Of a stretch of DNA of 64,000 nucleotides, positions 5,801 to 11,800 are shown piece by piece. This stretch comes from Megalobrama amblycephala. Its lineage: Eukaryota; Chordata; Actinopteri; Cypriniformes; Xenocyprididae. Made by a program: the position numbers and the translations under genes. The notes below the pieces were generated by a model that was not told the origin of the DNA, made no database searches, and saw nothing but the letters and a program-made list of their open reading frames with translations. The stretch lies in the NCBI RefSeq assembly GCF_018812025.1, contig NC_063062.1:2128254-2192253 (forward strand), given 5' to 3'. Every line of letters starts with the position of its first letter. Position 1 is the first letter of the stretch.

Positions 5801-8800
5801 AAATGTATCAAAATAAAGTGAGTTTATGCTTAAACAAAAAAAAAACTCTCAAAGGAGTCAGAAAACTGCCCATTAGCAGGTTCTTGCTTTATCGCCTCAG
5901 TTGTTTCTCTAAACCCCAGTGAGATCTAATGGAGATCAAATGGAGGTTTTTGCGGCAGTGATCAGTTTGACTGTTTCTCATCGGCAGCGTGTTCTCAGCA
6001 GTGATCGGAGGCGTGAGCTCCTTCAGATCCGTGTGAACCGAAGCTTCAGGCTCCCGGCAGGAGATCCGACTGTAAATCCTGCGAGAGGAAGTGCCCGCTC
6101 GTGATCACAGCTGCTGCGATTGCGGTGCTTTATGGGATACCTGCTGGTGCTCTGAGTTCTAGAGGTGTGACTGAAGAACAAACGCTTCAAGTGTGACGAG
6201 AGACATTTGCTCTGTCTGCATTGAATTAGAAATAGAAATTGATCAGAAGTGAGCTAAATCTGACACGACGTCCTCTAAAGTAAAGTAAAAATGTATTTAG
6301 TTTTTTCTTTTTAGGTTTTGGTTAGTCTGCAGTCATTATAATGATCTATTTAAACAACAGTCGAAGTCTATGATGTGTGTTGAGAGAGGTCAGATGAGAG
6401 GTCAGGGGGTCAAGGGTCACAGGAACAGATCTGACATGCTGACGACACAAACGTCCTGACGATCGGAGCTCGTCGTTTGTGGTTTGAGGAAGGCTGTATG
6501 TGAACAACATCAACTGTAGAAAAACACCTGTGAATGGACAGATGAAGAGTGGGAAAAACAGAAGTGATGACAGGAGGAAGAGAACATGATGGATGGAGTG
6601 ATGAAGAGAGGAAAGACAGTCTCTTGAGTCTGACTGCTGGACGAGTGTTGAGAAAATAAACACACTTTCACTGCCTTCATTTGAAGCTTATTTTGATGGA
6701 CTGTGATGCAGAAAGTCGCTTGAGACTCATGAAAGATTGAGTTTAGATTATCAAAGAAAAACTTTACTACATTCATTCATCATTCATTTTATGAATTATG
6801 TTTCTGTTAATTGGTGGATTGTATTGTGCTGTTGATTGTGTCTGCAGGAGAAAGTGCTGCGAAGGCTTCAGGTTTGTGATGGGTCAGTGTGTGCCAGAAA
6901 GTAGGTAAAACCTTCAGCTCATCTATTATACTGGAAAACAATCAGTCATTATATATGTCTGAAAGATGTATTTGTTTTTTTGCGATGATGAAGAGATTTA
7001 TTACCAGACTAGTTCACCCAGAAATGATCATTCTGATATTAATTTATTTATTTGTTGTTTTTATTTGTTTTTATTTTATATATTAACATTTATTTATTTT
7101 ATTCATCTTATTTGTTTGTATTTATTATGTATTATTTTTGTTTGTTTATAGATTTTTTTGTTTTATTTATATTTATTTATTTATTTTGTTTTTATTTAAA
7201 TTTATTTTATTTGTTTTATTTTGTTTATTTTATTTGTTTATTACTTTTATTTATTGTTTTATTTATTAATTTGTTTTTAAATGTATTTTTATTTATTTAT
7301 TTATTTATTTATGTTATTTATTGTCTTTATTTTTATATATTTACATTTATTTATTTTATTTGCTTATTTATTCATCTTATTTATTTATATTTATTTATTG
7401 TTTATTTGTATTTTATATATTTTATTTTTTATTTATTTCATATATTTTAATTATCTATTTATTTTATTTTTTATTTTTATATATATATTTTATTTGTTTT
7501 ATTTTTATATTTTTTTATTTTATTTATTTTATTTATTACTTTTATTTATTTGTGTTTATTTTTATTTTTTATTTATTGTTTTATTTATGAATTTGTTTAT
7601 TAGTTTTTACTGTATTTTTATTTATTTATTTACTTTATTTATTTTCTTAATTTTTATATATTTACATTTATTTCTTTAATTTGCTTGTTTATTCATCTTA
7701 TTTATTTGTATTTATTTATTGTTTATTTGTATTTTATATTTTTTAAATTTATTTTATATATTTTCATTATTTATTTATTTACCTTTATTTTATATATATA
7801 TATATATATATATATATATATATATTCAATAGGAAATAAAAATAAAAATAATAAATAAACAAATAAAATAAATATATGTAAATATAAAAACTAATAAAAA
7901 ATTATATATATATATATATATATATATATATATATATATATATATATATATATATATATAATTTTTATTAGTTTTTATATTTACATATATTTATTTTATT
8001 TGTTTATTTATTATTTTTATTTTTATTTCCTATTGAATTAGGAACTTTCTTCTATATACACCACTGAGAACAAGATCATGAATGTTTTCGGTCTGTTGAA
8101 TTCATTTTAAATGATTATATTGGTGTGCTGAATGTGAATTGTCCACTTTAAGCAGTTCACTAACATACAAATGAACTAAAAGCTTAAACTGTGATTTCAT
8201 GTGGTGTCATAATAATAATTATGTTAAAAACAGGTCTGGACGTGTGCGCCGGCTCTCCCTGTGAGCAGCAGTGCACGGATAACTTCGGTCGAGTGTTGTG
8301 CACGTGTTACGAGGGTTTCCGTTTCGACCGAGAGAGACATCGCCAACGGCAGCATCCATACTGCATAGGTCAGTACTGAAGGTCACGTGTTTACAGCATA
8401 CTGTGTTCAAACACACACACACATTCACCTCTCTCTCTCTGTGGTCCAGATGTGGATGAGTGTGAGGAGTCAAACAGCAGTGTGTGTGAACATGTGTGTG
8501 AAAACACTCCTGGAAGCTTCCGCTGCAGCTGTAATGCTGGATTCACACTGACAGCAGATCAGCGCTCCTGTGAACCCGTACACAACCGTGAGTGTGTGAG
8601 TGTGTGATTCACCCAGTCAGTGTGTGATGTGTGTGAGTGATCCGTGTGTCTCTGTGTCTCAGTGAACTCCTCCGTCAAGTCGGACACTCAGATGAGCTCT
8701 GGATCCTGTTCTCTCAGCTGTCAGGACTTCATGAACATGAGGAGCAATTTACTGCAGATCAAACTGCTGCTGGGACACACACCTGCACAGGTAACACACA

Positions 8801-11800
8801 CACACACACCTGCACAGGTAACACACACACACACACACACACACACACACCTGCACAGGTAACACACACACACACACACACACACACACACACACACACA
8901 CCTGCACAGGTAACACACACACACACCTGCACAGGTAACACACACACACACTCACACACACACACCTGCACAGGTAACACACACACACCTGCACAGGTAA
9001 CACACACACACACACACCTGCACAGGTAACACACACACACACACCTGCACAGGTAACACACACACACACACACACCTGCACAGGTAACACACACACACAC
9101 CTGCACAGGTAACACACACACACACTCACACACACACACCTGCACAGGTAACACACACACACCTGCACAGGTAACACACACACACACACACACCTGCACA
9201 GGTAACACACACACACACACCTGCACAGGTAACACACACACACACACCTGCACAGGTAACACACACACACCTGCACAGGTAACACACACACACACACACC
9301 TGCACAGGTAACACACACACACACCTGCACAGGTAACACACACACACACACACACACACACACACACCTGCACAGGTAACACACACACACCTGCACAGAT
9401 AACACACACACACACACACACACACACACACACACACACACACACACCTGCACAGGTAACACACACACACACCTGCACAGGTAACACACACACACCTGCA
9501 CAGGTAACACACACACACACACCTGCACAGGTAACACACACACACACACACACCTGCACAGGTAACACACACACACACACACACACACACACACACACAC
9601 ACACCTGCACAGGTAACACACACACACACACCTGCACAGGTAACACACACACACACACCTGCACAGGTAACACACACACACACACACCTGCACAGGTAAC
9701 ACACACACACACACACACACACACACACACACACACACACACACACACGCACCTGCACAGGTAACACACACACACACACACACACACACACACACACACA
9801 CACACACACCTGCACAGGTAACACACACACACCTGCACAGGTAACACACACACACACACACACACACACACACACCTGCACAGGTCACACACACACACAC
9901 ACACACACACACACACCTGCACAGGTAACACACACACACACACACACACACACACACACACACACACACACCTGCACAGGTAACACACACACACACACAC
10001 ACACACACACACACACACACCTGCAGAGGTAACACACACACACACACACACACACACACACACCTGCACAGGTAACACACACACACACACACACACACAC
10101 ACACACACCTGCACAGGTAACACACACACACACACCTGCACAGGTAACACACACACACACACACACACACACACACACACACACCTGCACAGGTAACACA
10201 CACACACACACACACACACACCTGCACAGGTAACACACACACACACACACGCACCTGCACAGGTAACACACACACACACACACACACACACACACACACA
10301 CACACACACACACACACACACCTGCACAGGTAACACACACACACGCACAGGTAACACACACACACCTGCACAGGTAACACACACACACACACACACACAC
10401 CTGCACAGGTAACACACACACTCACACACTCACACACACACACACACACACACACACACACACACACCTGCACAGGTAACACACACACTCACACACACAC
10501 ACACACCTGCACAGGTAACACACACACACACACACACCTGCACAGGTAACACACACACACCTGCACAGGTAACGCACACACACACACACACACACACACA
10601 CACACACACACACACACACACACACACACACACACACACCTGCACAGGTAACACACACCTGCACAGGTAACACACACACACACACACACACACACACACA
10701 CACACACACACACACACCTGCACAGGTAACACACACACACACACACCTGCACAGGTAACACACACCTGCACAGGTAACACACACACACACACACACACAC
10801 ACACACACACACACACCTGCACAGGTAACACACACACACCTGCACAGGTAACACACACACACACACACACCTGCAGAGGTAACACACACACACACACACA
10901 CACACACACCTGCACAGGTAACACACACACACACACACCTGATAAGCTCACACACATCTCATCTGTGTAGGGTTCATCTCCCAGTCTGGAAAACAACAGC
11001 CACAAACCGGCTCATGGGAGAACAGTGAAAAATCCTGATATTCACACCGTCACTGGACCAGCAGGACCTCCTGGACCTCCTGGACCGCCAGGTAAACACA
11101 CACACACACAGACAGATACATACACACACACACAATAAATATATTATTTTATGTAATAATATTCATCATGTTTTAGGTGAGCGGGGTGAGAAAGGAGAGC
11201 GCGGGCCGTCGGGACCCCAGGGGCCCAGAGGAGACATGGGTCTGATGGGGCCTCAACCCGATCTGGAGCACATAAAGACGGGCAGACGGGGACCGGTGGT
11301 AAAAACACTCTCAGAACTCAACAGAATCACAGAGGAGTTTCATTACAAACACTGAATGCTTCATATTCTCACTGTACTTCATGCTGGAGGAGAAGAACAT
11401 CTGACTGTTTCAACCCTGTAATATTTGATACAGAACTCGATATTTTCACTATATGAGTCAAATATGACAAACACGTGTGCAAGCATTTTGTTGCCTAGAG
11501 ATTCAATAAACAAATACAATTCTGACACTTATTTCATATATCAGGCTTTGCATGATTAATGTTGTGTTTTGTGAGCGTTTGATCAGTGTTTTCCTGTGTC
11601 TGTTTAGGGAGCTCCAGGAGCACCTGGTAAAGACGGACAGAAGGCACGTATCTCGCTTTACGTAAATGAACACCATACTGAACTATGATGGCAGTTTACT
11701 GTTATTTATGATTTATTACACTGTCTGTGATTGATGTAGAAACAATATGAATCAGATTAATTGTGATTTATGAATCTTTCTCTACAGGGCGACAGAGGGT

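Follow-up and report, generated by a model that had tools for sequence, protein, structure and literature searches.

A minisatellite of 60 units spanning the exon 6 donor of a ccbe1-like gene in Megalobrama amblycephala

We analyze a window of 64,000 nucleotides (nt) from Megalobrama amblycephala (NC_063062.1 of GCF_018812025.1), in which a ccbe1-like gene carries a minisatellite at the border of its coding exon 6 and intron 6, with a 5' splice site (donor) in nearly every repeat unit. Positions are window coordinates unless a chromosome is given, and a slash marks a splice junction. The gene layout (Table 1) comes from tblastn with the best relative, a predicted Chanodichthys protein (P0001, 98% identity). 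Introns 4, 5, and 7 measure 81, 75, and 85 nt, and intron 6 measures about 2.2 kilobases (kb), of which 98.5% is filled by the array; exon 7 starts 29 bases past the array end.

The original prediction took the host gene for ccbe1, which proved wrong. A tree of 23 proteins places the window gene in a 15-member ccbe1-like clade together with cartilaginous fishes and a coelacanth paralogue, apart from zebrafish and primate CCBE1, and the split between ccbe1-like and ccbe1 has a support of 100/100. A zebrafish ccbe1 query matches a locus on C18, with five matches at 82-94% and others lower, versus 49-66% for the window locus. Judged by these comparisons, the window gene is ccbe1-like, an old paralogue of ccbe1, and the true ccbe1 lies on C18. 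The nearest equivalent intron of the true ccbe1, a few codons earlier in the protein, contains no tandem repeat. Separately, exon 6 of the true ccbe1 (L021, ~C18:27964885) shows an apparent one-base insertion relative to the zebrafish protein that shifts the frame. In ccbe1-like itself, exon 9 has an apparent GC donor at 11644 (CAGAAG/GCACGT), and a Labeo record (P0035) is without the exon 9 residues.

The claim that exon 6 ends where the array starts held, as protein homology places the exon end there. The exon 6-7 junction, HTPAQ/GSSPS, is in frame and is the same in P0001 and in P0005, a 246-amino-acid protein from a 1,249-nt contig that is by eye nearest to Rhinichthys. The exons brought together in that contig extend over more than 8 kb in the window, so the contig is probably derived from RNA, and probably from another species.

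Table 1. Features of the ccbe1-like locus and of further exon-border arrays in the same genome.
Feature	Coordinates	Strand	Basis or remark
ccbe1-like, whole gene, 11 coding exons	2881..13190	+	tblastn with P0001
ccbe1-like exons 1-3	2881-2964, ~3450-3530, ~6846-6902	+	ends of exons 2 and 3 approximate
ccbe1-like exons 4 and 5	8234-8368, 8450-8587	+	protein homology
ccbe1-like coding exon 6, phase 0 end ...LLLGHTPAQ/	8663..8790	+	homology to P0001 (98%) and other cyprinid records
ccbe1-like coding exon 7, GSSPSLENN..., collagen start	10971..11091	+	protein homology
ccbe1-like exons 8-11	11177-11298, ~11606-11643, 11788-11823, 13005-13190	+	exon 9 ends approximate
Tandem array, 60 units (CA)nCCTGCACAG/GTAAC plus final CCTG	8777..10941	+	sequence, core search
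Direct repeat CACACACCTG flanking founder segment	8777-8786 and 10932-10941	+	sequence
Donor 1, CAG/GTAACA, natural exon 6 end, in frame to exon 7	8791..8796	+	translation, junction in P0001/P0005
Donor 2, would add 27 nt in frame (VTHTHTPAQ), linker before collagen domain	8818..8823	+	translation
Block of 136 nt, identical to 9056-9191, offset 174	8882..9017	+	self-comparison
Second block copy, identical to 8882-9017	9056..9191	+	self-comparison
Unit 21, GT to AT, dead donor	9399..9400	+	core search
Unit 34, donor weakened to GTCACA, U1 duplex -5.6 vs -8.0 kcal/mol	9884..9889	+	core search, U1 pairing
Donor 60 to acceptor, 53 nt only; acceptor tgtgtag/	10918..10970	+	sequence
rbpms border array, L053, 40-bp unit (~24 exon + 16 intron bases)	C3:62441384-62442424	-	flank reading
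axin-like border array, L069, 21-bp CAG/GTGAG unit, ~37 copies (Tandem Repeats Finder, TRF)	C7:165913-166679, exon border C7:166676	-	flank reading
gria-like (GluA4) border array, L070, degenerate 29-bp CAG/GTGRGA units	C16:40514550-40516381, exon border C16:40516378	-	flank reading

A search for the core CCTGCACAG/GTAAC allowing up to 3 mismatches returned 60 copies between 8782 and 10922, confirming the predicted series of about 60 tandem 5' splice sites after exon 6. The core is exact in 55 copies, and GT is kept in 59 and replaced by AT in one; no exact core was found in the rest of the window or on the minus strand. AG/GT is juxtaposed in 59/60 units and CAG/GT in 57/60. Coding exon 6 ends within the first copy, and this supports the claim that the repeat took in the border between exon 6 and intron 6: units of minisatellite size stand in tandem, with the natural donor in unit one and intact donors in later units. 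The 20-base unit word CACCTGCACAGGTAACACAC has 54 exact matches in the whole genome (1,109,882,926 bases), every one inside the array, and the reversed word has none there; the array has no second genomic copy. Within the window, triples of CAGGTAA at a set spacing have 26 starts, none outside 8788-10723, and the reversed control gave 0. The array is sampled here as one copy in one assembly, and an Rfam scan of the window at gathering thresholds gave 0 matches.

The 59 core-to-core spacings range from 19 to 79 nt and are all odd, as are the lengths of the 59 CA tracts between cores (5-65 bases; 1,301 bases in total). The CA tracts therefore change in two-base steps, and one-base insertions or deletions occur in 0/59. 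A perfect repeat of a 136-nt block containing several units shows that the array grows by blocks too. Unit length follows no trend along the array (Spearman 0.15, p 0.26), and runs of repeated spacings are unremarkable, identical runs of the observed length being reached by 117/500 shuffles and tolerant runs by 45/500.

That the donor core is almost invariant while CA length drifts was part of the original prediction. The observation stands, but conservation is no stronger in the core than in the tracts, with 6 substitutions in 840 core bases versus 8 in 1301 tract bases (Fisher p 0.79). These rates lend no support to selection on the donor core, and the contrast between core and tract is what one ordinarily sees when point mutation is set beside microsatellite slippage.

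Donor choice would matter greatly for the protein. When the insert left by each of the 60 copies was translated together with exons 7-8, the frame was kept by copies 1 and 2 only, and 58/60 brought a stop: donor 3 shifts the frame into a stop in exon 7, and copies 4-60 (copy 21 being without GT) meet a stop within the insert itself. The array is on the same ground rejected as coding sequence. A protein search (7,996 candidates scored) listed no ccbe1-like isoform with array-derived residues. The duplex of the array unit with U1 is predicted at -8.0 kcal/mol, and those of the exon 4, 5, and 7 donors at -7.8, -7.7, and -8.3 (full consensus, -14.0). The proposal of dozens of equal donors is thus right as far as their sequences go, which are nearly equal, but not in their consequences, since 58/60 bring a stop and donor 60 would leave just 53 nt of intron. 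The stretch before exon 7 offers two candidate branch points: CTGAT, whose A lies at 10942, right after the last CACCTG, and CTCAC at -21.

RNA structure was also considered as a mask over the donors. Each unit contains ACCUG-CA-CAGGU, and neighboring units would pair at -12.6 kcal/mol versus -8.0 for U1; 1/20 letter-permuted controls folded equally well or better. Predicted local opening is similar for the array donors (median 0.025) and the other donors in the gene (0.010, 0.078, and 0.033), and masking was rejected, as it explains nothing special.

We consider it probable that the array is a donor-spanning minisatellite seeded by slippage at the exon border, and that nearly all splicing uses donor 1. 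The ancestral intron 6 would have been short, like introns 4, 5, and 7 (75-85 nt), with a CA tract directly after the donor. The exon end and the intron would have had CACACACCTG in common, and slippage or unequal exchange would have duplicated CACAG/GTAA(CA)nCCTG; growth to 60 copies by slippage of units and by multi-unit blocks would then have expanded intron 6 to 2.2 kb, nearly all of it array. The short neighboring introns and the CACACACCTG direct repeats fit this origin: exchange between the repeats yields precisely the observed unit, and removing all that lies between them would leave an intron of 53 nt plus CA. Slippage or unequal crossing-over, as first proposed, also fits the duplication of a multi-unit block. 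In the Carassius and Puntigrus proteins EHTQ replaces GHTPAQ, so the codons encoded by CCTGCA are absent there; Rhinichthys has HTPAQ too. The overall divergence of the array, about 0.65%, indicates that it is either young or homogenized. Translations of the array on both strands, used as protein queries, found no relatives (3 low-complexity matches among 7,996 candidates scored, and 0 among 7,991). Elsewhere in the gene, the exon 7 donor at 11092 (CAG/GTAAACACACAC) likewise stands before a CA tract, but this donor has not been multiplied; it is a possible seed for a similar array.

As to splicing, exon definition and position would favor donor 1, the copy joined to exon 6, and the gene would still work. 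The later copies would be tolerated decoys, with donor 2 perhaps yielding a minor form with nine more codons in the linker and use of copies beyond it giving transcripts with early stops; from the sequence, dominance of donor 1 and this fate of the decoy transcripts appear most likely. Donor 1 gives the junction seen in relatives, which supports it as the natural donor, and equal mutation of core and tract fits the view of the later donors as decoys. A further argument comes from the variable number tandem repeat (VNTR) in intron 18 of human ABCA7 (25-bp unit, 12 to ~427 copies), whose first GT is the exon-18 donor. There, retention of a single unit is 2 +/- 1% and unaffected by array length, and stop-bearing forms are raised by cycloheximide (PMC5954066); we count this low retention and the cycloheximide effect in favor of donor 1 as the main site.

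Several points weigh against that assignment. Short introns are often intron-defined, which would favor late donors, and donor 59 leaves a 92-nt intron. The junctions of P0001 and P0005 prove little about the choice among 60 donors, as their genes may lack the array. The predicted accessibility of donor 1 is not much above that of its copies (opening 0.049, rank 4/60), and CAG/GTAACA is only a moderate donor, given its U1 duplex relative to the full consensus. Finally, in ABCA7, exon-19 skipping rises with array length and reaches 45 +/- 10% in BA10 brain tissue (PMC5954066).

This last result bears on a different reading, in which competing donors act as a dose regulator: with U1 on many donors, a sizeable part of the pre-mRNA would be spliced from late ones, gain a stop, and be destroyed, and array length would set protein dose. 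It is consistent with the 59 GT copies, most of which pair with U1 equally well and like the exon 4, 5, and 7 donors, with the 58/60 unproductive copies, and with the effect of array length on ABCA7 splicing, where exon-19 skipping is reported as 3.2x more abundant for the largest versus the smallest allele pair (PMC5954066). However, the cores show no sign of selection and single-unit retention in ABCA7 does not change with length, and we regard such regulation as unlikely.

The suggestion of recursive splicing, with the CAG of a unit serving as acceptor for an earlier donor, has the merit that nearly every unit ends in CAG and starts with GT, so that any removal within the array leaves the same junction and wrong choices would be silently corrected. 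The geometry it needs is present (AG/GT in 59/60 units), and excision between donor 1 and a later CAG would restore the donor. Some of the gene's own acceptors are weak as well: that of exon 4 has a pyrimidine fraction of 0.35, T runs longer than 1 are absent from those of exons 5-7, and those of exons 6 and 11 lack yTnAy within 50 nt. The array CAGs, with a mean pyrimidine fraction of 0.53, T runs of at most 1, and yTnAy within 50 nt in 6/54 exact units, are nevertheless weaker than most, though not all, of the gene's own acceptors, 8/10 of which reach 0.65-0.88 and 8/10 of which have yTnAy. T runs and branch-point matches give no clean split between array CAGs and real acceptors of this gene. 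Splicing within the array is not favored, and we would give it little credence.

Comparably improbable is a role of the CA tracts as a platform for hnRNP L, which would raise or lower the use of donor 1. Hui and colleagues reportedly found in 2003 that hnRNP L on the CA repeat of eNOS intron 13 affects splicing, and in that system, as in this array, a CA repeat directly follows a 5' splice site. The 1,301 bases of CA tract directly downstream of the donors would suit such loading, but the exon 7 donor also precedes a CA tract, yet has no array. An assembly artefact that inflated or invented the copy number, to which the perfect 136-nt duplication and the hint of base errors in the true ccbe1 exon 6 might point, is very improbable given that the array lies within a 41-Mb contig, that 59/59 tracts are without one-base indels and the 14 substitutions are scattered, that no second genomic copy exists, and that even one or two genuine units would mean a captured border.

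Comparable arrays exist elsewhere in this genome. We searched it for triplets of four donor words, each against its reversed pattern: CAGGTAA gave at least 504 places versus 80 reversed, CAGGTAAG at least 312 versus 41, CAGGTAAC 53 versus 17 (full list), and CAGGTGAG 77 versus 2,635 (full list). As these counts are mixed, we claim no general excess of donor arrays. Flanks were examined at the window and at 16 array loci (L053-L061, L065, L067-L072), which are not a random sample, and L064 was scanned for open frames alone. Four of these 17 loci (three and the window) have a recognized exon end at the array start; L055, L065, and L072 were left unclassified, L054 holds an open repeat close to a transposase-like frame, L068 is a coding repeat, and no exon was recognized at the array start in the remaining examined loci. 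There are thus three further exon-border donor arrays, in rbpms, an axin-like gene, and a gria-like gene, which are new here and bring the number in this genome to at least four.

The rbpms exon matches human RBPMS at 76%, with three more matches upstream. Its 27 junctions lie exactly 40 bp apart (17 GTAACG, 1 GTAACA, 5 GTTAAA, and 4 ATAAAG), and with donor 1 alone (1/27) does the frame stay open into the last exon at 62438177. Two rbpms paralogues have no donor array at this border, both reading CAG/GTGAGG. Like the shortest ccbe1-like units, the rbpms unit contains GTAAC[AG]CACACCTGC, but its length is constant and the array is more diverged (3.5%), with 4/27 junctions without GT. The 16-mer GGTAACRCACACCTGC occurs genome-wide only in the rbpms (18) and ccbe1-like (2) arrays (reversed control, 2); it was rejected as a meaningful link between them, having been noticed post hoc with about one chance match expected.

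The axin-like exon encodes RGS and axin tankyrase-binding domains, with axin structures as best match, and the gria-like exon best matches AMPA receptor GluA4 (Pfam ANF_receptor). The former array has 35 AG/GT sites, 21 of them CAG/GTGAG, and the latter 40 up to the end of the stretch taken; 1/35 and 1/40 are open, meaning here in frame with a stop-free insert, the next exon not being joined. Both resemble the ccbe1-like array in beginning at the exon end, here with units of CAG/GTGAG or CAG/GTGGG, and in keeping the frame at almost no site (one each). Their units differ, being 21 bp in one and a degenerate 29 bp in the other, and contain no CA tract. Summed over the four arrays, the frame is kept by 5/162 units or AG/GT sites, and 5/162 are without GT. 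We count the same pattern at the three other borders in favor of splicing from donor 1.

More broadly, and tentatively, border donor minisatellites may be recurrent in this genome. In each, the spliceosome would have to pick the first of ~20-60 similar donors, since hardly any other preserves the frame; the decision would then follow a first-donor rule based on position and not on donor sequence, and the length of an array may adjust how far developmental and synaptic genes are spliced unproductively. Studies of 5' splice site choice usually have to contend with donors that differ in sequence. In this array, the donors are nearly identical over nine bases, have the same CA-rich flanks, and are set apart almost solely by their position. 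With nearly every wrong donor giving a stop, the array is a natural test of splice site choice, for which the rbpms, axin-like, and gria-like arrays are replicates with other units and donor words. Such arrays cannot be crossed by short reads.

Other repeats were seen in passing. A very large array at C15:11996232-12027225, among the matches listed, has a donor-like CAG/GTAAGAG every ~20-40 bases, and at C13:23814700-23814861 an 11-bp unit CAG/GTAAGTAG places 15 CAGGTAAG in tandem, with no exon recognized at its start. The window also holds a 113-bp satellite (4428-4666, 4807-5677, and 39731-40487; both orientations by eye) and a related 21-bp minisatellite, ATGCTAGCAAC... (14600-18970, 20780-21650, 33754-34878, and 37519-39035), which at 14.6-19 kb forms a higher-order repeat of ~560-640 bp with a repeated open stretch of 75 codons. 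Open frames at 22-33 kb, 45-47.7 kb (minus strand), and 63.4-63.9 kb (minus strand) look like nnt, dtwd1, and fgf7.

The original prediction knew of no described case of this scale, a claim that falls with ABCA7 and its 12 to ~427 copies. A literature search, judged by titles, returned no on-point paper on surveys or on fish cases of such arrays. ABCA7 shares with ccbe1-like an exon-end minisatellite whose first GT is the natural donor and whose next donor retains one unit, shifting the frame in ABCA7. Its unit is a C-rich 25 bp starting at the donor, and the array is polymorphic and tested in RNA, whereas the ccbe1-like unit carries up to 15 exon bases plus a CA microsatellite, varies from 19 to 79 nt, and is read from genomic sequence. 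The IFI6 (G1P3, 6-16) unit is 12 bp long and present in 26 copies. Two of its downstream repeat units are described as used as donors, giving three mRNAs (PMC4526556, citing Turri 1995), a case that likewise has minisatellite units as alternative donors, with a short unit. The 31-bp VNTR of CBS, c.1444_1467+7, present in 16-21 copies (PMC2630376) and placed at exon 13-intron 13 in a table (PMC1395315), similarly spans an exon/intron border, but its unit is constant and its copies are fewer than in ccbe1-like. The ccbe1-like array is therefore unusual, of a kind already known, and no record in scale, and its companions in this genome hint that slippage at exon ends may quite generally give rise to donor-spanning VNTRs, which are known in a few human genes.

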